A stretch of 32,979 nucleotides of DNA from Magnetococcales bacterium (GTDB lineage: Bacteria; Pseudomonadota; Magnetococcia; Magnetococcales; UBA8363). The stretch is from positions 1-32,979 of the forward strand of contig JADGCQ010000039.1 in assembly GCA_015228925.1 (NCBI GenBank), written 5' to 3'. The notes below the pieces were generated by a model. That model did not search any database. It had not been told where the DNA came from and was given only the letters and a program-made list of their open reading frames with translations. Each line of letters starts with the position of its first letter. Within the stretch, counting starts at the first letter, position 1. This document shows positions 1 through 13,775 of the stretch, in pieces. The translations under genes were made by a program, and so were the position numbers.

Positions 1-7
1 CAAAACC

Positions 8-36
8 CTGGGGGCAATCCCCCAGACCCCTTTTTT
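8..36. terminator. Bidirectional intrinsic terminator
   Basis: Perfect 7-bp stem (CTGGGGG at 8-14 and CCCCCAG at 19-25) with a 4-base loop. On the plus strand it is followed by CCCC and six T; on the minus strand by GGTTTTG. It lies 43 bases past the pdxA stop and so probably ends the minus-strand operon. It could also serve a plus-strand gene left of the window. Confidence 0.6.
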
Positions 37-67
37 CTTTCAATAATTTTCTAGGAGGGGTAAACGG

Positions 68-1051
68 TTACTTCTTCCGGTTCCTCCCCATCTCCTCAGC
101 CAAAGCCAAAGCGTGATGAAAAGAACGGCAATCAGCTACCCCCTGACCGGCAATATCATAAGCGGTGCCGTGATCGACACTGGTTCGGATAAAAGGGAGA
201 CCCAGCGTACAATTGACCGCCTCACCAAAAGCCAACATCTTGATGGGGATGAGGGCCTGGTCATGATACATCAAGACCACCGCATCATAGGTTGACCGCA
301 TCCGATCATGAAACAAGGTATCCGCAGGCAAAGGACCAACAAGCCCCGGACCATAAACACCACGCAATGCCGCACAAACCGGGGCGATGATCTCACCTTC
401 CTCTTGACCAAAAATCCCCCCCTCGCCCGCATGCGGATTCAACCCCGCAACCGTCACACGCGGCGACGAAATCCCAAAATCCTGCACCAACGCCTCCCAG
501 GTCGTCACAATAACCCGATGCAACCGCTCCTGCGTCAGCGTCGATGACACACTCGCCAAAGATTGGTGAATGGTGACCGGAACCACCCGCAACCCCTTTC
601 CCGTCAACATCATGACCGGTTGCGCCACCTCCGCAAACGAACCAATCAATTCCGTATGTCCCGGAAACGTATATCCCGCCGTATGCATGACCCCCTTGTT
701 GATGGGCAAAGTCACCATGGCATCCACGCGCCCCGCTTGCGCCAAACGACAACACGCAAGAATGCTGTTCACCGTCGCCGCAGCAAACCGTGGATCGGGC
801 AAACCAAACACAATATTTTCAAAAGGAACCGTCTCTTCTACCGGAATGACACAAAAACAAGAGGCCAGCACCCCCACCACCATCTCTGGGGATTCAACCT
901 CCCGGATAGGGCAATCAAGATTCAGATGCCGCGCCGTCATCCGAAAAACTTCGGGATCCCCCACATACACACGCCTGGGAACCGGCGAAAATCCCCGGAG
1001 AGCAAGCTCCGGCCCAATACCCGCCGGATCCCCCATGGTGACTGCGATCAA
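68..1051 (-). CDS. pdxA: 4-hydroxythreonine-4-phosphate dehydrogenase PdxA
   Basis: NAD-dependent cytoplasmic dehydrogenase of the deoxyxylulose-5-phosphate-dependent vitamin B6 (pyridoxal phosphate) pathway. Visible family motifs are the N-terminal MGDPAGIGPEL, the metal-binding stretch around PGHTELIG, NPHAGEGG and YHDQALIPIKM. I chose a TTG start whose last two bases are also the first two bases of the surA stop codon (TTGA overlap). It has GGAA five bases upstream and gives 327 residues, close to the usual length near 330. The alternative ATG at 1093 would add 14 residues (MAAGSSPTRF...) unlike the family N-terminus and overlap surA by 46 bases. The surA-pdxA order is common in proteobacteria. 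Function is secure; the start is inferred. Confidence 0.95.
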   Translation of the reverse strand: MIAVTMGDPAGIGPELALRGFSPVPRRVYVGDPEVFRMTARHLNLDCPIREVESPEMVVGVLASCFCVIPVEETVPFENIVFGLPDPRFAAATVNSILACCRLAQAGRVDAMVTLPINKGVMHTAGYTFPGHTELIGSFAEVAQPVMMLTGKGLRVVPVTIHQSLASVSSTLTQERLHRVIVTTWEALVQDFGISSPRVTVAGLNPHAGEGGIFGQEEGEIIAPVCAALRGVYGPGLVGPLPADTLFHDRMRSTYDAVVLMYHDQALIPIKMLAFGEAVNCTLGLPFIRTSVDHGTAYDIAGQGVADCRSFHHALALAEEMGRNRKK

Positions 1052-2538
1052 GGAAATTCCACAAAAGCGCGTAGGCGAAGATCCCGCAGCCATTGCTTGT
1101 AACGATCCTTGATTTTAGTCCCCATCAACCGCTGCTCCAACATCGATTTTTGCGCTTCAAATGAGTTGGGACTCAAAGATTCCTTGTCTTCCAGCAGAAT
1201 CAAATGCCAGCCAAATCCGGTTCTCACCGGCTCGCCAACCTCCCCCTTTTTCAAAGCATTCATCGCATTATCAAACGCTTCGACCATGACACCCTGTTCA
1301 AACCATCCAAGGCTTCCCCCATCCTTGGCGGAACCTTCATCTTCGGAAACCTCACCGGCCAATTGTGCAAACGGTGTCCCTTTCCTGATTTTTTCCCAAT
1401 ACTCCTTGATTTTCTCCAAAGCCTCCGCCTCGCTCCGGTTTTCGCCAACCTTGACGAGAATATGGCGTGCCTTATAACGATAGCGCGCAGGCATGGCATC
1501 CTGGGAGACCTCCTTGGACCTCCGCTCGATCATCTTGAAGATGTGAAATCCATCCGGTGAACGCAACGGTTCCGAAATCTCCCCTTTCTGCATGTGAAAA
1601 ACCACGCCCTCCAATTTTTCCGGCAACTCCCCCTTTTTAAACCAACCCACATCGCCACCCTTCAAACCGGATGGATCGATGGAATACTGGCTGGCAAGCG
1701 ATGACAGACTCTTCCCCTCGCGTAACGATGCCACCAACTTACTCGCCTTCTCCTGCAACCGTGCCACCGCATCCGCGCTGCTGCCCGCCGGAATATCCAA
1801 CAAAATCTGCCCCAAATGAACCTCTTCCTCCCGCGTCTGATCGGTGGGAGTCTGATTGAAAAGAATTCGCAATTCCTCGTCAGTCACCGTCACCAGCGGC
1901 GCAATAATTCTTTTCTGCAACCGGTTTTCCAACAATTGATCGTTGAGTTGCAAACGATACCGATCATAATCGACGCCATCTCGCCTCAAGGCGGCAGGTA
2001 ATCCGCCCCGTGGCAAATTATTTTTCCGCTCCACCTGCGCAATGATCTCGTCAACGTCTTCGTCCGTCACCGTCACACCCAATTGCGCCGCTTTCTGATC
2101 ACGCAATTTGCGAACGATCAACTCCTCCAAACCACGCTTGCGTAACGCCTCCAGATCAAAGTCATCCCCCTTCTTCCGCATCTCCTCCATAGCGGGTCGG
2201 ATCAGTTCGTCCACCTCCGACTGCGTGATAATCTTTGGCTGCACCGGTTGATCGCTGATGACCTGGGCTTCGACGATCGCCACAATTTTATCCAACGTTC
2301 CCGCCCGGACAAACGGTTCACTTAGGGGTTGGGCCGGAATGATTTCCGCATCAGGCCCAGAAACCATCCGCTTGGAAGCCTTGTCCGAAGTCGCCTTGGA
2401 AGATTTTTCCATCAACGGCTGCGCCCAAGCCAAGTTTGCCCCCCAAAGCCCCCCCCCAACGCCAAGGACCAGCATGAACAGCACGCCCACGCCATGGATA
2501 CCATTCCCCCCGCGCCACCTATCTTTCACCGTTGCCAT
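1048..2538 (-). CDS. surA: Periplasmic peptidyl-prolyl isomerase/chaperone SurA
   Basis: Periplasmic chaperone and peptidyl-prolyl cis-trans isomerase that escorts outer-membrane proteins to the BAM complex. From the chosen ATG, residues 1-39 form a signal peptide (basic start, hydrophobic stretch, cleavage after AWA). A SurA N-terminal helical domain follows at about 75-230. Two parvulin domains lie at about 238-340 (GGDVGWFKKGELP) and 355-453 (ARHILVKV, GGSLGWFEQG), and a C-terminal helix ends the protein. The frame is open upstream to a TTG at 2592 and an ATG at 2583. The ATG at 2538 gives a normal-length signal peptide and has GGAGG 12 bases upstream. It directly follows lptD, a major SurA client, and its stop overlaps the pdxA start. 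Confidence 0.93.
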   Translation of the reverse strand: MATVKDRWRGGNGIHGVGVLFMLVLGVGGGLWGANLAWAQPLMEKSSKATSDKASKRMVSGPDAEIIPAQPLSEPFVRAGTLDKIVAIVEAQVISDQPVQPKIITQSEVDELIRPAMEEMRKKGDDFDLEALRKRGLEELIVRKLRDQKAAQLGVTVTDEDVDEIIAQVERKNNLPRGGLPAALRRDGVDYDRYRLQLNDQLLENRLQKRIIAPLVTVTDEELRILFNQTPTDQTREEEVHLGQILLDIPAGSSADAVARLQEKASKLVASLREGKSLSSLASQYSIDPSGLKGGDVGWFKKGELPEKLEGVVFHMQKGEISEPLRSPDGFHIFKMIERRSKEVSQDAMPARYRYKARHILVKVGENRSEAEALEKIKEYWEKIRKGTPFAQLAGEVSEDEGSAKDGGSLGWFEQGVMVEAFDNAMNALKKGEVGEPVRTGFGWHLILLEDKESLSPNSFEAQKSMLEQRLMGTKIKDRYKQWLRDLRLRAFVEFP

Positions 2539-2572
2539 CACCCCGAAAAACCTCCGAAAGGTTTCGTGAAAC

Positions 2573-4759
2573 TCAAACGCCATAGTCGCCAATACCCTTC
2601 AGACCCAAAAACAATCCGATAAAACCGCCCCCATGGTTATCGGTATCATGAGCCAAGTTACGCCCCCCCTCCACACTCACCGTCCAACATTGATGAATAT
2701 AGGCCAGACCCGTCCTCCAACTTTTGATGTTACTCTGATTCAGGGAATAATTCGCCTCCTGACTCCAAGACCATTGCTCGTTCAGCCCCACCCGGGAATC
2801 CACCACGGCATCTTCCAACAACGCCCCGTTATTTTCCATCATGTTTCCCACCGCAGAGGGTTGATTATAATGATAACCTACCGAAATACTGTCCCGTTTG
2901 GTTGGAGAAAGCGACACACGCACCGCCGTGTTTTCCAATTCCACCTCATAAGGATCATAACGATTGGCGGCACTGACTTCCAATCCCCCCGACAGTTGCA
3001 CGGACACGTTGGAAACAATGGGTGAGAATTCATAGCCTTGCTGGTATTCCTGAGAACCTTCCGGTGCCCACCTTTGGCCCACAGACCATTCCATACTCCG
3101 CAAAAACGGATCCTCAGATCCATGATCGAGGAGCCGCGTCGTCAAGGCATAACCGACGCGATGACCGACACTGATGCGGTCAAGTCCCGAATACAACGAA
3201 TCACCAAACAGATTGGAAAATGCAAAATATCTTTGGGTGGCATCATAGTTGGGCAACAAGCTTTGATCGGTGGCGGCATTGTGGGCATATTCAATTCTGG
3301 GTTCCAGGGTATGGGTCGCAAAACCTGGATAATACTTGAATAGCTGACTGGTGAGTCCGACGCTGACCATGGAGGACTCCCGATGTTGGGTACTATCGAG
3401 ATCGGTTCCGGTTTGATCGGGATCCCCTTGAATGGCATACGCGGTTTCGCGCACTTGACCCCGCATGGTCAACCGTGTCACCCCCAGTGGCCGGGTATAT
3501 TCCAACGTTGGGGCGGCATCGATACGTTGTACCGCATCGCCCGACATTTGGTAAAAATGATCCAGGTGAAATTCGCGCTGCAACCGCCAGCGGTCATGAT
3601 CCCACCCCTCAAAAAACATCCCCTCTGGGAGTGCATTCAAATTTTGGCTGTCGGAATAGGCCATGAACGGGAGACTTTGGACGGTAAATTGATCATCGGC
3701 GGCTTCCAAATCCTGGTTCCACCGCCCCCCTGCCCGGAAGGTGGTATACCCGTCTTCACGAATTCCAGAGCGATTGGCGACCACGGTGGATTCCAAGCGG
3801 CGCGCCGTGGAATCCACCAACGTTTGATGAAAATCGTTAATGTAATCGCGGGTCTGACTGAGTTCTCCCCTGGCTACAAGATCCCATCCCCACAACCGCC
3901 CTTTATGATCCAGGGTAGACAACCCCCGCCACCGATCTTCCAAGGTGTCCTGAATCTGTTGCGTTTGCAGTGTCCCTTCATACCCCAGCCCCAGATAACG
4001 GTATTGCATTTTTCCCATAACCCCCCGTCGGGTAATGGGACGGATCCCCACCGTAAGATCCCGGTCTGGTGCCAGGTTGAAAAAATAGGGAACTTCAAAT
4101 TCCAAACCATTGCTGTCCCCCGTGCGAATATCGGGGGTCAAAAAACCACTCTTTTTTTGCTTGCCCACCGGCTGTTCCCACCAGGGCAACCAAGCAACCG
4201 GCGTCTCCCCCAGGTAAAACCGAACATCCTTGGCAATCATGGAATTTTCCTGGCGATCAATATCAATCGTCCCGGCAGACAGTTTCCATGGAGGCGGATC
4301 ACAATCACAGTGGGTAAACCAAGCGTCCGTCAGGGTCATGTTATCCGGGCCGAGGAGTTCCACCGCCTGGGCACCCCCCCGCCCCCCTTCTCCCTTCAGA
4401 TGTAACTTAACTTGGTCCAAATGACCCACTTTGGTATCGGTATTGATGACGACCCGATCACCTTCAAACTGATCACCCTGGTTCAGCAAGCGAATGTTCC
4501 CTTTCGCCTGAATTTCCTTGGTTTTTCCCGAATAGCCCACCTCATCGGCTTTCAGATCCATCTCTTCGCCCCGAACAATCTGGACATTGCCCTTGGCTTT
4601 GATCCCTTGATTATCCCGATCCATCTCTAGGTCATCGGCATGAACATCCATGGGCAAATCCCCTCCTCGCGCCAGGGAGGGATCAACCGCAAACAGCATC
4701 GCCAAAGCCAACGTGAAACCCATCTTGGTGAATCGGCAGGTACACAGCGGAGAATACAT
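2573..4759 (-). CDS. lptD: LPS-assembly outer-membrane protein LptD
   Basis: Outer-membrane translocon component that, with the lipoprotein LptE, inserts lipopolysaccharide into the outer leaflet. The chosen ATG (AAGG seven bases upstream) gives 728 residues with a signal peptide ending in PSLA at about residue 30. An OstA/LptA-like beta-jellyroll follows (KGNVQIVRG, KGNIRLL), then the LptD beta-barrel with many amphipathic strands. The frame is open to 4858, but the extra N-terminal residues have no signal-peptide character. Cysteines occur as CDC after the jellyroll domain and as a single Cys in HQCW near the C-terminus, where E. coli has a CC pair, so the disulfide pattern may be simpler. 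The neighbours folC (upstream) and surA (downstream, 34-base gap) suggest cotranscription. Confidence 0.94.
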   Translation of the reverse strand: MYSPLCTCRFTKMGFTLALAMLFAVDPSLARGGDLPMDVHADDLEMDRDNQGIKAKGNVQIVRGEEMDLKADEVGYSGKTKEIQAKGNIRLLNQGDQFEGDRVVINTDTKVGHLDQVKLHLKGEGGRGGAQAVELLGPDNMTLTDAWFTHCDCDPPPWKLSAGTIDIDRQENSMIAKDVRFYLGETPVAWLPWWEQPVGKQKKSGFLTPDIRTGDSNGLEFEVPYFFNLAPDRDLTVGIRPITRRGVMGKMQYRYLGLGYEGTLQTQQIQDTLEDRWRGLSTLDHKGRLWGWDLVARGELSQTRDYINDFHQTLVDSTARRLESTVVANRSGIREDGYTTFRAGGRWNQDLEAADDQFTVQSLPFMAYSDSQNLNALPEGMFFEGWDHDRWRLQREFHLDHFYQMSGDAVQRIDAAPTLEYTRPLGVTRLTMRGQVRETAYAIQGDPDQTGTDLDSTQHRESSMVSVGLTSQLFKYYPGFATHTLEPRIEYAHNAATDQSLLPNYDATQRYFAFSNLFGDSLYSGLDRISVGHRVGYALTTRLLDHGSEDPFLRSMEWSVGQRWAPEGSQEYQQGYEFSPIVSNVSVQLSGGLEVSAANRYDPYEVELENTAVRVSLSPTKRDSISVGYHYNQPSAVGNMMENNGALLEDAVVDSRVGLNEQWSWSQEANYSLNQSNIKSWRTGLAYIHQCWTVSVEGGRNLAHDTDNHGGGFIGLFLGLKGIGDYGV

Positions 4760-4844: not shown

Positions 4845-6161
4845 TCACCGCTGCCCAATCCCCAGGGAGTCTAGCAGGGAACACGCCTGTCCCACCAGAT
4901 ATAACGAACCTGAGACCAATATTTGTCCATGGTCTGGCGTGATCGCCAAGGCCAGATCCCAGGCTTCCTGGAAAGATACGGCGCACTGGGTCGGTTTGCC
5001 GATATTCTGCCAGCAAGTCTGAAGATCTTCGGTGGAACGCCCCCGATCACCACCCACGGTTACGACGATAACGTGGTTGACCCAAGGGGCCAAAATCTGG
5101 GCCATGTCGCAAACATCCTTGTCTTTCAATGCAGAAAAAACAAGGGTACGGTCATGGGGATCATAACGCTCTTCGGCCAGGGCGTGCGCCAACGCCACCA
5201 TCCCCAAGGGGTTGTGCGCACCATCGAGGACCATGGCGGGTTTCCCCGCAACGTGTTGCAGACGGCCCGGCCAGTGAACCTCTCGCAATCCACGGGATAG
5301 GCTCGACTCCGAAACAGACCAACCATCACGCGCCAGACAGCGGATGGCCGCCACCGCCAAAGCGGCATTTTCACGCTGATGCGGTCCGGCCAAACCGGGA
5401 GTCGGCAACCGCAGAGACCCCCAAGCATCCGCAAACGCCCACCCTCCCCCTGGCCCTGCGTGGTGATAGCGGAAATCCCGCCCCAGGCATTGCAACGATG
5501 TACCCACCGTCTGTGCCTGCGCCATCAGCACCTCCCATGCCGCACCAGAACCACAACTGGTGAGGGCCGGGACACCCCTTTTTAAAATCCCCCCTTTTTC
5601 CCAAGCGATGGTAGCGATATCCGATCCCAGATAGTCCCTATGATCCAGTCCAATGGCGGTAATGAGGGTCATCAACGGACGGGCGACAACATTGGTCGCA
5701 TCCAAACGCCCCCCCATCCCCGTTTCCAAAAGGACCACATCGGGATTTTCCCCCCCGATGACACTGCCCAGGTTGGCAAACAACCACAGTGCGGCAACCG
5801 TAATCTTTTCAAACCAAGTCGAAGCGATCCCTGCCGCGCTCCCAAGGACCATCTCCAATGCCTCGGCAATGGCATCATCCCCCAATTCCTGTCCCTGGAA
5901 CCGTATCCTTTCGTTGAATCGCACCAGATGGGGGGAGGTATAGGCGGCCACCGCCACCCCTTGCGCCCGTAAGATCGCTTCCAAAAAGGCGATGACAGAC
6001 CCTTTGCCGTTGGTCCCCGCCACATGGATGACCCGCAATTGCCTCTCTGGGTGCCCCAACCGTTGGAGCATCGCCTCCACCCGCTCCAAACCCAGGTGAA
6101 TCCCTGGAGGGGTCGCCAAGGCCATGGCATCGAGGACTTGATTTAACCTATTTTTTTTCAT
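4845..6161 (-). CDS. folC: Dihydrofolate synthase / folylpolyglutamate synthase FolC
   Basis: Cytoplasmic Mur-ligase-type enzyme that adds glutamate to dihydropteroate and then to tetrahydrofolate. Motifs are the P-loop AGTNGKGS, TSPHL, LETGMGGRLDATN, the GLDHRDYLG / EKGGILK pair typical of FolC, and DGAHNPLG in the C-terminal domain. The length of 438 residues from the ATG at 6161 matches the family. The open frame upstream of this ATG runs into trpF and shows no FolC similarity. The gene starts 23 bases after the trpF stop. In many proteobacteria trpF and folC flank trpBA and accD; here those genes are absent and the two are adjacent. Confidence 0.94.
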   Translation of the reverse strand: MKKNRLNQVLDAMALATPPGIHLGLERVEAMLQRLGHPERQLRVIHVAGTNGKGSVIAFLEAILRAQGVAVAAYTSPHLVRFNERIRFQGQELGDDAIAEALEMVLGSAAGIASTWFEKITVAALWLFANLGSVIGGENPDVVLLETGMGGRLDATNVVARPLMTLITAIGLDHRDYLGSDIATIAWEKGGILKRGVPALTSCGSGAAWEVLMAQAQTVGTSLQCLGRDFRYHHAGPGGGWAFADAWGSLRLPTPGLAGPHQRENAALAVAAIRCLARDGWSVSESSLSRGLREVHWPGRLQHVAGKPAMVLDGAHNPLGMVALAHALAEERYDPHDRTLVFSALKDKDVCDMAQILAPWVNHVIVVTVGGDRGRSTEDLQTCWQNIGKPTQCAVSFQEAWDLALAITPDHGQILVSGSLYLVGQACSLLDSLGIGQR

Positions 6162-6184
6162 GCGTATTTTGCAGTTCCGATCTA

Positions 6185-6829
6185 TCACGACCAACCCATG
6201 GCACCATGGACCTCCCGGACAAACCGCTTCATGAGCGCGTGATCCTTGACACCTGGGGACGATTCGACGCCACTGGAGACATCCACCGCATAGGGACGGA
6301 CCTGGGTGATGGCATGGGCGACATTGCCAGGGTGCAACCCACCCGCCAATATCAACGGAGCATTTCCCGGATGATGGGCCAACAACGACCAATCAAAACT
6401 GCGCCCACTCCCCCCCTGCACCCCAGAAACCTTGGCATCATACAGGATGCCAGCGACCCGATAATCCGACGCGGCCTGCATGTCTCCGTGACCTGCCACC
6501 CGCAACGCCTTGATGATCCGGTTTGAGAACTGTGCGCAAAACTCTGGGGTTTCATCACCATGAAACTGTAGCAGATCCAAACCGACCCGACTGGCGGTGG
6601 TTTCAATGTCCATTTTGCTCGCGTTGACGAACAAGCCGGTGACCGTCACAAACGGCGGGAGGGCAGCGACCAATTCCACCGCCCTGGCCACGGTCACCGC
6701 ACGGGGTGATCGCTCATAAAAGACCAAACCAATGGCATCCGCCCCGGCATCGATGGCCGCCAGGGCATCTTCGCGGCGGGTGATGCCACAGATTTTAACC
6801 CGCACACGCGGCGTCTCATTCGGTGCCAT
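6185..6829 (-). CDS. trpF: Phosphoribosylanthranilate isomerase TrpF
   Basis: Catalyses the Amadori rearrangement of N-(5-phosphoribosyl)anthranilate in tryptophan synthesis; a single TIM-barrel enzyme. The N-terminal VKICGITRREDA contains the catalytic Cys, LQFHGDE is the usual mid-barrel strand, and DVSSGVESSPGVKD near the C-terminus carries the catalytic Asp and the phosphate-binding loop. The ATG at 6829 gives 214 residues. A GTG three codons upstream (6838) is an equally possible start. Neither has a clear ribosome-binding site, so translational coupling to the upstream small gene, which it overlaps, is likely. Confidence 0.94.
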   Translation of the reverse strand: MAPNETPRVRVKICGITRREDALAAIDAGADAIGLVFYERSPRAVTVARAVELVAALPPFVTVTGLFVNASKMDIETTASRVGLDLLQFHGDETPEFCAQFSNRIIKALRVAGHGDMQAASDYRVAGILYDAKVSGVQGGSGRSFDWSLLAHHPGNAPLILAGGLHPGNVAHAITQVRPYAVDVSSGVESSPGVKDHALMKRFVREVHGAMGWS

Positions 6830-7211: not shown

Positions 7212-7426
7212 GGCAACGGTTCCAACTTGCGCTGTGGATAGAAAGAATAGTCTTGTCGGTAGAGACCCGGTTCACTGCTCAAAGCAAGGATCGAACCATC
7301 CGGGAAATTTTCCCAAGATTCTTGACATCCTTTCAATAACACACCCCACCCACCTCTGTCAGCAGACAATACACCGCACCCATCAGGCGAAAATATCCGT
7401 CAGAAAGTTGCTCCCGGCGTTGAAGG

Positions 7427-8782
7427 CTAGCCTGGAATAGATGGCGATGTTTCTGGAGCAGACAAAAAAGCACGCACCTGACCCTCCAGGGAGGCAAAAA
7501 GCTCCTGTAACGTATTTGGCCCCTTCTCTTCAGAGAGAATATAGCCGAAGTCTTTCTTTGCAAAAGAGAGTCCCCGGATCATACACTCTTCAATCTCAGT
7601 ACCCTCTTGCTTGTTCGGTAGTTTTTTAAAAAATAGGAGTACACTGGGATAGACAGGACCCTTGAAAAAATCATCTGGGTCCGACCCAAGTTTGACCTGA
7701 CAATGGTGACCAAAGGCAACGAGATAATTGACCATGGCCCAAAATGAATGGGGGATGTAGTGTTTTCCATCTCCCGTCTCATTACGCTTGGCATCCCCCA
7801 GGATACTGATTGTTTTGTTTGAATCATTTGAGCAAAATTGCAACCAGATGTCTGGATCCTTGCCAATTGCCTTGTACCCCAAAGATCCCAGATGCCTGAT
7901 GCTGCGGTCATTCACCTTGTTGGATCCCTTGAAGGGGCATCCCTTGCCAACTTTCAAGGTGAAACCATCCTTGACCAAAGAAGAATGACCTTTCGCGTCA
8001 GGAGAACTTTGCGGAACCGGTTTCCATCCATTTCTAAAAGCGGCGTGCAACAAAGAAATGGTGGCGATGATCTCCAGGGCGGTATCGGCATTTTCTGGAT
8101 GAGATTTTTTACTGGCGATGACATTAAAAAGTATGTCGGCGTGTTTTTCTGGCTCGTAGGGGCGTTCCAACAAAAACATCTGTTTTTGCAGAAGTTCTGC
8201 CAGCCTGACGCCATTGTCATGATTGCGAATCCTGTGGAGAATGTTAGCGTCCAGTCGCGTGGGCTGCACAGCCAGATGCCAGTTGTTGCATGCCCTTTCC
8301 AATTTGCGGGCACGTTCTTGGAAACGATCCCCAACGCCATTTCTCAGCGCGGCAAAGGCATTCAACTCTTCCGACCACAGGCGTGCAAGCTGCACCAAGG
8401 CAGAGAGCAATTGGGTATCTGGAGAGGAAACAACACTTCGTTCCCAATAGTGCAGGGGGGTGCTGCCGAGACTCTCCGCAAGCGTCCTCGCCCAATCCGT
8501 CCTACGACCAATGGATGAACTTCGGAGAAGTTTGGACGTGGTGAGCGTTTTTTGTGTCTTGAGAAACGCACTCAAGGCATTCTCCGCAGCCATGCGATCC
8601 GAATGTTCCAATCCCAGAAGTGTTTCCAGTTCCGCGATCCCGTTGTCATCGACATATTTTCTCAAAAACAAAACAAGATCGATCAAGCGGTTATGGAAAA
8701 ATTGGCCAACCTTCCATACCAACAAACTGCCCAGGGATTCTTGTTCCCCGTCGGACAGATTTCTATCATGATTGTTTGTCAT
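7427..8782 (-). CDS. McrC-like PD-(D/E)XK nuclease partner of the AAA+ ATPase
   Basis: 451 residues, probably the nuclease subunit of a two-gene modification-dependent restriction or related defence system. Residues 1-250 are predicted mostly helical and are not recognised. The C-terminal half carries PDIW (310-313) followed 16 residues later by GDAK (329-332). This PD...DxK spacing is that of a PD-(D/E)XK core and resembles the PDI...DAK signature of McrC-type nucleases. The start overlaps the stop of the upstream ATPase gene by 4 bases (ATGA), implying translational coupling. What is seen is the motif and the gene pairing. The McrC role is inferred, since the N-terminal half does not look like a classical McrC. 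No terminator is obvious downstream; a 10-bp palindrome (AGGCTAGCCT) sits at the stop. Confidence 0.65.
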   Translation of the reverse strand: MTNNHDRNLSDGEQESLGSLLVWKVGQFFHNRLIDLVLFLRKYVDDNGIAELETLLGLEHSDRMAAENALSAFLKTQKTLTTSKLLRSSSIGRRTDWARTLAESLGSTPLHYWERSVVSSPDTQLLSALVQLARLWSEELNAFAALRNGVGDRFQERARKLERACNNWHLAVQPTRLDANILHRIRNHDNGVRLAELLQKQMFLLERPYEPEKHADILFNVIASKKSHPENADTALEIIATISLLHAAFRNGWKPVPQSSPDAKGHSSLVKDGFTLKVGKGCPFKGSNKVNDRSIRHLGSLGYKAIGKDPDIWLQFCSNDSNKTISILGDAKRNETGDGKHYIPHSFWAMVNYLVAFGHHCQVKLGSDPDDFFKGPVYPSVLLFFKKLPNKQEGTEIEECMIRGLSFAKKDFGYILSEEKGPNTLQELFASLEGQVRAFLSAPETSPSIPG

Positions 8783-10938
8783 GGGCCATCGCTGCCGTTT
8801 TCACCCAACAGTGACGAGAGATTCACAAATGTAGGTTTGAGCAGGCGTTCCAACTCGATTCTCAGGAAAGCCGAAAAAATATCCTTGTCGCTGGATTCTG
8901 ACTGATTATCACTGTTGATGACACGATAGAAAGCTTCATTGTCATTCTCGGTGATCCTGTAGAAAGTATCCTTGGAAAAAACACTCTGAATGATCTTTAA
9001 TGCTGAGACAAGCGTTTCCTGTTCGGAAGGTCCGGTGAAAGCCGTCAGTTGCGGGAAAACGGACATGACAACACCAATGGCCGTATAGGAAAAGACAATA
9101 TGGCGAATGATTTCTTCATCCATTTTCTTTCCTTTCCAAAGTTTCAACAATTTATCCGGTTCCGAGCAGGAGATCCCTTCAAAAAGCAGATCAATGATAT
9201 CTTTGACTTGGGCAATGCCAACAACACGCATCTGTACCAAATCGCTGCCCTTCTTGCTGACTGCAAATAATGCGTTCAGGCAAGCTATAGCACTTTCTTC
9301 CAATTTTCCTTCCGTATCTTTGAAAAAATGCCTCGTGTTTGAGTCTTTAATCATCTTGGAAGCATGTTTGACAGCACGCTCTATGATTTCCTGAACGATA
9401 TCTGGGCCAGGTGCCTCGACACGAATGATGTTGAACCGACGCTGGAATGCATAAGAAAGCTGGTGCAACCTTGAGGCATCGGCATCGTTCATGGTGCCGA
9501 TGATCCGAAAGGTGTTGTCAACAGGATAAACCTGATAATCGCTGTACTCACTGGAAGCTGCACCACCCTGTGGAAGGATGATGATCGGTTTGACCACGTA
9601 AGTCACGTCCTCTTCGCTACCCGATTCTCTCTCCTCGTCGGCGACCCGTTCCTCAAAGGGGAGGATGGAGGGTTGACCAGAGAGAACTGTGAAAAGCTCA
9701 CCAAAACATGCGTCAATATCAGCCCGGTTCAACTCATCGATAATGAGCCAAGTTCCCTTCTGAATGGCACTCAAAAAAAATCCAGGACGAAACGTCAGCA
9801 TGCCAAGTTTTGAATCACCCATGGAGGGCATGTAGCGTCCGATCAGTTCGTTGGTGGTCCAAACAGGGGAGGCGGTAACGGCAACGGGCGTTGCGTAACC
9901 AGCTTCCTTGGCGAGACACATCGCCAATTCGGTTTTTCCGCATCCAGGCGGACCGGTGAAGATAACATTTTTTTTGGCGTTGAGAGATGAGCAAGCCGCT
10001 TCCAAAACATACCATGGAAGCGTTATTCCCTTATTCTTAAGACTCTCCATCACTTCATTGGGCTTAAGATCGATGGGCCTTTTGGGGATGTAGGAATCGT
10101 GACGGAAAAATTGGGATTCTTCCAGGGATTTATTGGTCTTGTTTCTATAGGAGCATTCGAGAATGATGCGGATAGACGCCAATGCAACGCAAAAAGCGGC
10201 CCATTGGCATTGCCATTCCTGGAGTGACTCTTTATCTGGCAGGATCAGGGGTGGTGTATGTATCGTCCATTTTTTGGATTTGGCAACATATCGCGGCCAA
10301 AATTTAGCATAAGGGGCACCAATGGCCAGTTTAAATTCGTCATGAACATGCCCTTGAGAACCGCTCTTGCGTTCGTTAGAAAACCAAGGGTTGGCAATAA
10401 AATCGATATCGGAATAGTCTCTGGGGGTAGGAAGGGCCAACGGATCTGCCAACTCCATTGACAATTGCGTACCACCGGATTGATCTGAGGTTTCAATAAG
10501 TTTGAGAAACCACACGGTAAGGAGCGGAAGTGCTTCAGCTTTCTCATCAGTCGATTTAGTCTCCGGGGTAATGGCAAACCGAAGACCAACCTCCATGGGC
10601 ACATCTACATAACCACCACTCAAAGATTTCTTCTCTTTCGAAGTCAGGCTAGAGATAGATGTATGAAAACCAAGATTCCCCGCCTTTATATTAAAATCTT
10701 TGTTGCTCTTCTTGTTGCCAGCATCCACAAATGCAAGCACATTCGGATTGACCTCCCCTTCCACGGGATTTTTATCTGCGACCTTTTTGAGGCTAGCGAT
10801 TTCGCCCGGATTTTTGGATAAAATTTCAATACCTTCCCCGATGGCACCCACTATTTTTATTATTAGTTTTCTATAATTTTCTCCCTCTTCGATGATATAT
10901 CTATAACCATAGTTTGCGCCATCAAAAGATGTATCCAA
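8779..10938 (-). CDS. McrB-like AAA+ NTPase (restriction/defence)
   Basis: 719-residue motor subunit, probably working with the adjacent nuclease gene in defence against foreign DNA. Residues 1-300 form an unrecognised N-terminal region, expected to recognise the target. The AAA+ module begins near 320 with Walker A GPPGCGKT (329-336). Walker B is LIIDELNRA (398-406), sensor 1 is GTMNDAD (481-487), and an arginine-finger region FQRRF (498-502) follows. The MNxxD...RRF pattern is characteristic of McrB GTPases, although MoxR-type ATPases look similar. The start is TTG with a strong AGGAG five to six bases upstream. Codon use and base composition are more AT-rich than the flanking housekeeping genes, which suggests horizontal acquisition. 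Confidence 0.78.
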   Translation of the reverse strand: MDTSFDGANYGYRYIIEEGENYRKLIIKIVGAIGEGIEILSKNPGEIASLKKVADKNPVEGEVNPNVLAFVDAGNKKSNKDFNIKAGNLGFHTSISSLTSKEKKSLSGGYVDVPMEVGLRFAITPETKSTDEKAEALPLLTVWFLKLIETSDQSGGTQLSMELADPLALPTPRDYSDIDFIANPWFSNERKSGSQGHVHDEFKLAIGAPYAKFWPRYVAKSKKWTIHTPPLILPDKESLQEWQCQWAAFCVALASIRIILECSYRNKTNKSLEESQFFRHDSYIPKRPIDLKPNEVMESLKNKGITLPWYVLEAACSSLNAKKNVIFTGPPGCGKTELAMCLAKEAGYATPVAVTASPVWTTNELIGRYMPSMGDSKLGMLTFRPGFFLSAIQKGTWLIIDELNRADIDACFGELFTVLSGQPSILPFEERVADEERESGSEEDVTYVVKPIIILPQGGAASSEYSDYQVYPVDNTFRIIGTMNDADASRLHQLSYAFQRRFNIIRVEAPGPDIVQEIIERAVKHASKMIKDSNTRHFFKDTEGKLEESAIACLNALFAVSKKGSDLVQMRVVGIAQVKDIIDLLFEGISCSEPDKLLKLWKGKKMDEEIIRHIVFSYTAIGVVMSVFPQLTAFTGPSEQETLVSALKIIQSVFSKDTFYRITENDNEAFYRVINSDNQSESSDKDIFSAFLRIELERLLKPTFVNLSSLLGENGSDGP

Positions 10939-10996
10939 TAGTTTCTCCTCTATATTAAAAGATATTGTTTTTTATTAAAATAATGATTACAGAATC

Positions 10997-11042
10997 TTTG
11001 ATCATAGGCAATATTTTGATCATAATCAGGTTATTATGTCAA
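10997..11042 (-). promoter_or_regulatory. Promoter with tandem operator-like repeats before the McrBC-like cassette
   Basis: Reading toward the cassette, TTGACA (11042-11037) is an exact -35 box. CAAAAT lies 18 bases further and matches the -10 consensus at 4 of 6 positions. A 10-base direct repeat TTTGATCATA occurs at 10997-11006 and 11015-11024 with an 18-base period, each copy containing the palindrome TGATCA. One copy overlaps the -10 box and the other the expected start site, which fits a repressor site. Both boxes were found by eye; the regulator is unknown. Confidence 0.45.
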
Positions 11043-11127
11043 GTCTTCGCATCCAGAAAATCTGCTTGATTGGTTATCAGAGTTAAAAATATGTAAAGTT
11101 TAATATTATTTAATTCTTTTATTATTA

Positions 11128-11454
11128 ATGGATTATGATGTATTTCACCTGCCTGAAGAGACCAACAGTTGGCAGTGGAAAGAAATTTTTGCTTTTGAGG
11201 AGAGCCAAAAAATGCCCACCATTTCGAGCGTCGAACGGATTGGACGACAAGCTGGAGAAGAAAAAGGTATCCAAATCGGCGAGGCAAAGATTTTGACGCG
11301 CCAGTTACATCGTCGCTTTGGCCCCCTGCCCGACTGGGCCAATCAAAAAATCGCCGAAGCCAAACCACCCTCCTTGGAAGCGTGGAGCCTTCAATTTGTA
11401 GATGCCCAATCATTGGATGAGGTCTTTTCTGATACGGAAACGTCGCCTTCTTAA
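11128..11454 (+). pseudogene. Truncated Rpn/PD-(D/E)XK family protein with DUF4351-like C-terminus
   Basis: Remnant of the C-terminal third of an Rpn-type (recombination-promoting nuclease / PDDEXK transposase family) protein. The 108 residues show the typical linker FEESQKMPTISSVERIGRQ, a short charged repeat GEEKGIQIGEAK, and then a DUF4351-like domain (RQLHRRFGPLPDWANQKI...LDEVF). The N-terminal nuclease domain, usually about 200 residues, is missing. Upstream DNA is very AT-rich and reaches an in-frame stop at 11101-11103 without restoring it. The ATG at 11128 has no convincing ribosome-binding site. It lies at the edge of the McrBC-like island and supports a history of mobile-element traffic there. 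Confidence 0.65.
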
Positions 11455-13090: not shown

Positions 13091-13125
13091 CGTTGCCGAG
13101 TTCAAAACCATACCAGGAAGAATCC

Positions 13126-13377
13126 ATGCTGCACGCCATAGAAGAAGAGGTACTCCTGCCCGCCGATGGCAAATTGCCGGAAACATTCCATGCCGCCTTC
13201 GGACGCAGGGCCAGGGTCATCGTGCTGTTGCCAGAACCCATAGAAAACGCAGAGCCTGACCAGGATGATGCGCAACGGTTGATGGCGTTCGCCGGCACAA
13301 TTGACTGGCCCATGGACGATCCCGTGACTTGGCAACGGCAACAACGCCATGAATGGGAACGGTCATGGGATCGCTGA
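13126..13377 (+). CDS. VapB-like antitoxin
   Basis: Short 83-residue protein beginning MLHAIEEEVLLPADGKLPE. This is a swapped-hairpin (AbrB/VapB)-like opening followed by a stretch with RRARVIVLLPEP, and an acidic tail rich in Trp and Arg. Antitoxins of this style bind their own promoter with the N-terminus and the PIN toxin with the C-terminus. The start is supported by AGGAAG five bases upstream; the frame is open 11 codons further up without a better site. It overlaps the PIN-domain gene by 13 bases. Assignment rests on size, N-terminal style and the toxin next door; the exact antitoxin family is uncertain. Confidence 0.72.
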   Translation: MLHAIEEEVLLPADGKLPETFHAAFGRRARVIVLLPEPIENAEPDQDDAQRLMAFAGTIDWPMDDPVTWQRQQRHEWERSWDR

Positions 13378-13775
13378 ACTTCCTGCTCGACACCAACGCA
13401 GTCATCTATCTTCACAAAGGATTATTGAAGGATCCTTTACCCCCAGGCCGCATGGCGATTTCATTCATCACCGAAATCGAATTGCGCAGCTTCCCCGGCT
13501 TGTTGGGCGAACAGGAAGCTTGGTTAGCGCGATTCCTTGCCAACGTTCAACATATTGGTTTATCCCACGAAATCAAGGAAACCGCCATCAGGTTCCGTCG
13601 CACCTACCGACTCAAGATTCCAGATGCCCTCATTGCCGCCAGCACCACCCTCCACGGCGCGATATTGCTGACCAATGACGATCAACTTCATAAAGTACCC
13701 GAGTTAATCTGCCGTAGATTGGAATTGACCGCCCCGACACCCGGACTGGGAAAACACATCGCCGCAAGTACCTGA
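13365..13775 (+). CDS. PIN-domain ribonuclease toxin, VapC-like
   Basis: 136 residues forming one PIN domain, an Mg-dependent endoribonuclease that acts on RNA when the antitoxin is lost. The expected acidic residues are visible: D9 in LLDTNAVIY, a Glu in FITEIEL (about 37-39), D87 in IPDALIAAS and D105/D106 in LLTNDDQL. The chosen ATG lies inside the antitoxin end, in another frame, and gives an N-terminus that starts directly at the PIN beta-strand. An ATG four codons upstream is possible. The active site looks intact, so the toxin is probably functional. The gene converges with exbD after 16 bases. Confidence 0.88.
   Translation: MGSLNFLLDTNAVIYLHKGLLKDPLPPGRMAISFITEIELRSFPGLLGEQEAWLARFLANVQHIGLSHEIKETAIRFRRTYRLKIPDALIAASTTLHGAILLTNDDQLHKVPELICRRLELTAPTPGLGKHIAAST

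Follow-up and report, generated by a model that had tools for sequence, protein, structure and literature searches.

A probable horizontally acquired, divergent McrBC-type restriction cassette in a Magnetococcales bacterium

The gene pair and its McrB-type ATPase

The window analysed here is a 32,979-nucleotide stretch of DNA from a Magnetococcales bacterium (GenBank assembly GCA_015228925.1, contig JADGCQ010000039.1, positions 1 to 32,979 of the forward strand). On its minus strand lie two overlapping genes, one encoding an McrB-like AAA+ ATPase/GTPase and the other a McrC-like partner with a PD-(D/E)XK signature. An earlier reading of the letters alone (the sequence-only reading) had proposed an McrBC-like cassette with atypical subunits here, and both open reading frames and their overlap lie where it had placed them. 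On the evidence below we favour, with fair confidence, the view that the pair is a horizontally acquired, divergent McrBC-type restriction cassette directed against phages or plasmids. Its main features are as follows.

8779 to 10938, minus strand: McrB-like AAA+ ATPase/GTPase, 719 residues, TTG start (open reading frame, domain match, partner kept in eight loci)
7427 to 8782, minus strand: McrC-like partner, 451 residues, with a PD-(D/E)XK signature (open reading frame, alignment, profile comparison)
8779 to 8782, minus strand: 4-base overlap of the ATPase and partner genes (reading-frame coordinates)
10945 to 10950, minus strand: GAGGAG, resembling a ribosome-binding site, just upstream of the TTG start at 10938 (direct reading of the sequence)
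9433 to 9969, minus strand: AAA_5 domain, residues 324-502, with Walker A K335, Walker B D401/E402, N404/R405, sensor-1 NxxD N484/D487 and R500/R501 (Pfam, alignment)
10069 to 10938, minus strand: N-terminal part of the ATPase, about 290 residues, unrecognised and fast-evolving, a putative target-recognition domain (Pfam scan, alignment)

Because the two genes overlap by 4 bases, their translation is likely to be coupled. The ATPase gene stands upstream of the partner gene in all eight loci at which we found the pair.

Pfam matched residues 324-502 of the ATPase to AAA_5 with an E-value of 1.3e-17, and the motifs named by the sequence-only reading, GPPGCGKT, LIIDELNRA and GTMNDADASRLHQLSYAFQRRF, were all found. 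Among seven aligned ATPases K335, D401/E402, N404/R405, N484/D487 and R500/R501 are invariant, and these are the equivalents of the McrB Walker A lysine, D279/E280, N282/R283, N333/D336 and R348/R349. The roles of these McrB residues, those of R348/R349 included, are described in cryo-electron microscopy papers (PMC6624300, PMC7680126); R500/R501 corresponds to the arginine finger/sensor-2 pair. Sensor 1 carries NDAD, the NxxD signature of McrB, in 8/8 ATPases, and reads GTMNDAD[RA] in this family as against ATQNPxE in MoxR. A small tree of AAA domains, with moderate support and small sampling, joined the family to McrB-type proteins, far from the MoxR and CobS-like outgroups; tree and sensor-1 motif thus separate the ATPase from MoxR, in keeping with the McrB type first assigned to it. 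The aligned match with E. coli McrB extends over the AAA domain (probability 99, E-value 4.6e-19). Guanine contacts in McrB are mostly main-chain (PMC6624300), and by analogy GTP would be the substrate of the ATPase in the window.

Outside the AAA domain Pfam recognises nothing, which bears out the earlier impression of an N-terminal region unlike that of classical McrB. The N-terminal 290 or so residues gave no Pfam match in any of the seven ATPases, and the window protein is 16-22% identical to the other members in this region and 51-80% identical in the AAA core blocks. Such variability fits a variable recognition module, a role that we infer for this region.

The partner subunit and its nuclease signature

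Two features of the partner bear on its predicted activity.

7757 to 7855, minus strand: predicted nuclease core, P310-D311 ... D330-A-K332-R333-N334 ... G339, Y342, invariant in seven aligned partners (alignment)
8072 to 8074, minus strand: E237, invariant, a candidate for the acidic residue of motif I, on a conserved helix that precedes the nuclease strands (alignment)

Residues 310 to 334 read PDIWLQF...GDAKRN. Across the seven aligned partners, which show 22-25% identity to that of the window, E237, P310, D311, F316, D330, K332, R333, N334, G339 and Y342 are invariant, and nine of the 31 invariant residues in this alignment are among the 33 residues from 310 to 342 (hypergeometric P about 1e-4). 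An eighth partner shows the same PD...DxK pattern. Because the invariant residues cluster in this stretch and the gene pairing recurs, the signature is more than a chance resemblance; the PDI...GDAK element that had been picked out in the C-terminal half of a single sequence therefore holds across the seven homologues, in which both PD and DxK are invariant.

Annotation models see almost nothing of this protein. Searches of Pfam, PADLOC and NCBIfam returned no match to the partner at E-values up to 10, and a Pfam scan of the seven aligned partners gave a single weak and uninformative match, in one member. When profiles were compared, the partner family matched the McrC-like partners of McrB-type ATPases from haloarchaea, Priestia and an IMG/VR viral contig (hhalign probability 96, E-value 1.6e-9, score 79, against a maximum score of 20 in 40 column-shuffled controls). 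The match spans about 285-344 columns with signal in both halves. Thus the partner's N-terminal half, in which the sequence-only reading had recognised no classical McrC region, is indeed missed by Pfam but is not without relatives. These McrC-like partners in turn matched classical McrC with a score of 36 against a shuffle maximum of 19 (probability 20-57%, E-value 1e-3 to 1e-4), aligning in the part of the N-terminal domain that holds the G-R/PEN motif. The profiles tie the partner convincingly to the McrC-like partners of the haloarchaeal and Priestia ATPases; the next step, to classical McrC, is weak.

These McrB-type pairs from haloarchaea, Priestia and the viral contig are the nearest relatives found, with ATPase cores up to 45% identical to that of the window. 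Their partners share the 'W..T' and PD...(E/D)xK positions with the window partner, and almost all of these pairs have overlapping or abutting genes. They differ at motif III, where they have E-x-K and the window family has [GA]D[AP]KRN, and in their ATPase N-termini, which are often longer and in one case carry EVE (EVE-McrB is described in PMC7641849). Several of these pairs adjoin DNA methyltransferases, unlike the window family as far as tested. On the viral contig, L067, the genes of an McrB-type ATPase and of its McrC-like partner stand in a row with one resembling a DNA methyltransferase gene (402-4619); the three may form a LlaJI-like system carried by a mobile element.

Like McrBC of E. 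coli K-12 and T. gammatolerans, the pair is a two-gene operon with the motor gene first, the motor having a variable N-terminus and an AAA_5 domain with NxxD and the equivalents of N282/R283 and R348/R349, and the partner a helical N-terminal half (in a low-confidence model) and a PD-DxK C-terminus. Unlike McrBC, it has no DUF3578, EVE or YTH reader that we could find, and some 35-40 residues of variable sequence are inserted ahead of sensor 1. LlaJI R1/R2 likewise combine a unique N-terminus and an McrB-like GTPase, with long motif spacing, with a separate PD...D/ExK subunit, but LlaJI has its own methyltransferases and an unmethylated target, and no methyltransferase was found beside the window pair. 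CoCoNuTs, the NxD branch of McrBC, also consist of an McrB-like motor and an McrC-like partner, whereas the window pair is of the NxxD type and the conserved pair includes no HEPN or other extra nuclease.

Distribution and acquisition of the pair

The same gene order was found in seven further pairs, one on the Salinibacter ruber plasmid pSR116 and six on Myxococcota contigs, with the genes overlapping or abutting, so that the co-occurrence suggested as a check on the pair extends over eight genomes or replicons. The pSR116 pair, found by tblastn, consists of adjacent genes whose products are 35% (ATPase) and 27% (partner) identical to those of the window. A motif scan of an 84,980-genome collection with the hand-made pattern DAK[R/K]NxTGD gave 46 matches, of which two were real; these are the Polyangiaceae contigs L013 and L034, each with the 4-base overlap. 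Searching sampled Myxococcota genomes with a profile brought in three more, G641, G434 and G429, and subsequently G772. The parts and the operon are thus kept across at least three bacterial lineages.

Within the window's class the pair occurs in 1/48 genomes, the 47 others having no relative, and it occurs in 5/379 sampled Myxococcota genomes. No relative turned up among 399 sampled genomes of the window's phylum; absence elsewhere is unproven, because few sequences went into the first profiles. Scans of genome and viral contigs with single proteins and with the first alignment returned nothing, and a similar motif pattern had no matches in viral contigs, where the matches to the ATPase profile were mostly generic AAA proteins, L067 alone being informative. 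Within the window's order classical McrC is present in two or three genomes, and it was not found here (DUF2357 and McrBC Pfam models, genus and order, the DUF2357 search having no positive control).

Proximity to known defence genes had been proposed as a further check, and its outcome was divided. Two relatives have such neighbours, a BrxHI-type helicase (E-value 3.6e-272) near the pair on the Polyangiaceae contig L065 and, after the pSR116 pair, a gene annotated as an anti-phage dGTPase, but the window pair is flanked by housekeeping genes. The region L065:718-9073 holds, beside the pair, the BrxHI-type helicase, another helicase, a DpnII/MboI-type nuclease and HNH proteins, a candidate defence island. 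Near the G434 pair, at L063:2693-5771, we noted a RavA-like MoxR ATPase and a VWA protein.

Comparison with a sister genome, G042, delimits the inserted DNA.

7403 to 11139, no strand: acquired block, approximate limits (G042 aligns to 14000-11140 and to 7403-7372 and below, with other sequence between)
11128 to 11454, plus strand: C-terminal remnant, DUF4351, 108 residues, of an Rpn-type gene (Pfam E-value 1e-6; sister genome comparison)

The G042 flanks are 93-94% identical to those of the window on both sides, and the pair is absent from G042, which is split into contigs, so that on the trpF side the junction could be placed only approximately. G042 has a 330-residue Rpn-type DUF4351 gene (L114:2537-3529, minus strand), of which the window keeps only the C-terminus; the place of its 5' part is where the cassette now sits. 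The Rpn remnant named by the earlier reading is therefore genuine. The pair was gained at this locus or is absent in the sister lineage, and near-identical flanks without the pair, together with the truncated Rpn-type gene, support horizontal acquisition. The AT-rich composition that had been claimed was also found, and the drop in GC content, to 42-49% over the pair from about 52-59% in the surroundings, agrees with transfer. The sister genome without the cassette offers a natural comparison for the timing and route of the gain.

Proposed mechanism, alternatives and other features of the window

The pair is probably a variant of the McrBC-type nuclease driven by nucleoside triphosphate (NTP), with a role in defence. 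In such a machine the variable N-terminal residues of the ATPase, about 290 in number, would recognise the DNA target, and the AAA+ domain would assemble into a ring and hydrolyse NTP (GTP by analogy with McrBC). The helical N-terminal half of the partner would dock on this ring and stimulate the ATPase, and its C-terminal PD-(D/E)XK domain would cut DNA after translocation. Ring assembly, translocation, cutting, the role of the N-terminus and the function in defence are all drawn by analogy with McrBC. Dependence on modified DNA (type IV restriction) is plausible from the gene content.

Several results weigh against an McrBC-type restriction cassette. None of the Pfam models for McrC, DUF2357 and PDDEXK_7 (PF10117, PF09823, PF04411) matches the partner, and direct hhalign comparison of its family with E. 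coli McrC and with McrC sets was not significant, so that the link to McrC is stepwise, through the McrC-like partners, and not direct. Known readers of modified bases (DUF3578/ADAM, EVE, YTH, DCD) were not found by Pfam in the N-termini of the seven ATPases. AlphaFold2 models from three-sequence alignments were of low confidence, with a mean predicted local distance difference test score of 55 for the partner and 34 for the ATPase, and Foldseek gave no significant match to the partner model; with models this poor such matches carry no meaning, and none was used. In the partner model helices extend to about residue 250; strands follow, with PD before one and DxK after the next, and after these come a helix and a strand, an order that is compatible with a PD-(D/E)XK fold and proves nothing. 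The surroundings of the pair are housekeeping genes by Pfam (pdxA, surA, lptD, trpF, an MFS (major facilitator superfamily) transporter, Tol/Ton and flagellar genes). Of the transferred defence island first suggested, the transfer stands, the cassette being missing from the sister locus, and the island in the window is rejected. Finally, the position of McrB R337 is alanine in the window (A488, 9475-9477) and arginine in the other seven members.

This last change might mean that the cassette is decaying, inactivated in the window genome by the loss of the arginine of its MNxxDR motif. We consider this improbable, since both genes are full-length and open, the remaining catalytic residues are intact, and R337A in E. 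coli McrB raises the basal GTPase about threefold and does not abolish it (PMC7680126). An AAA+ chaperone in a housekeeping or co-opted role, resembling MoxR/midasin or PcdA, an McrB relative in cell biology, with the neighbouring gene incidental, would accord with the presence of midasin among the best PDB sequence matches and with the reported case of an S. aureus restriction-system protein that was co-opted into cell division (PMC10602043). It is nonetheless very improbable: MoxR has a different sensor 1 and branches far away, the neighbour with the nuclease signature is kept in 8/8 loci, so that the MoxR-type ATPase without such a neighbour that the sequence-only reading had allowed for was not what we found, and this conservation largely excludes an incidental pairing. 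The patchy distribution and the absence from the sister genome also argue against a core function.

The likeliest of the alternatives is sequence-specific restriction of the LlaJI type, in which an McrBC-like machine would act on a sequence that is not methylated and a methyltransferase gene located elsewhere would provide self-protection. The subunits LlaJI R1/R2 are organised in the same way and act on unmethylated DNA (PMC1459862), PADLOC models of type II restriction endonucleases weakly match the AAA region of our ATPase, and methyltransferases adjoin several of the McrC-like relatives. A crude regular-expression search, however, found no methyltransferase motifs in the window, nor in the six Myxococcota loci, for which regions of 13-20 kb were covered, and the one Salinibacter candidate (NPPF motif) lies about 7 kb downstream among genes resembling another system. 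Since the window and the flanks of 6/7 relatives yielded no methyltransferase-like gene, a type IV mode is likelier, and we regard the LlaJI type as unlikely. The target might also be something other than modified DNA, either RNA, as has been proposed for CoCoNuTs, or DNA in a particular structure or state of replication, and the pair might then act through abortive infection. The ATPase N-terminus matches no known reader of DNA modification, and some McrBC relatives are predicted to target RNA (PMC11090510); CoCoNuT GTPases, however, are of the NxD type with long coiled coils and extra nucleases (HEPN), whereas the window family is NxxD, has no extra nuclease gene in the conserved pair and keeps its PD-(D/E)XK residues intact. 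Such a target therefore seems improbable.

Within the McrBC-type restriction cassette that we favour, we suggest only tentatively that the ATPase carries a new target reader, distinct from DUF3578, EVE/YTH and DCD, that responds to a modification or a state of DNA beyond those of known type IV systems, and that the pair is a distinct, unnamed McrBC-type subfamily. No name or description of it was found in the literature searched, and the McrBC census of PMC11090510 may hold these proteins. Such a reader would be a candidate new sensor of DNA modification, of use in research on phage defence and as a tool. The partner forms a bridge between the McrC-like partners of other McrB-type ATPases and this new branch. 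Because Pfam, NCBIfam and PADLOC miss the nuclease subunit entirely, the group is invisible to annotation of this kind.

Elsewhere in the window, the open reading frame at 4845-6392 is presumably folC, a further housekeeping gene. On the plus strand at 13093-13775, a 94-residue open reading frame overlaps that of a 140-residue PIN-domain protein (PF01850, E-value 1.1e-11), a possible VapBC-type toxin-antitoxin pair. The first bases of the window (1-50) belong to a dispersed repeat of about 50 bases that occurs in both orientations in several genomes of the genus, at a contig end in G042 and also in G045 and G043, with several copies.

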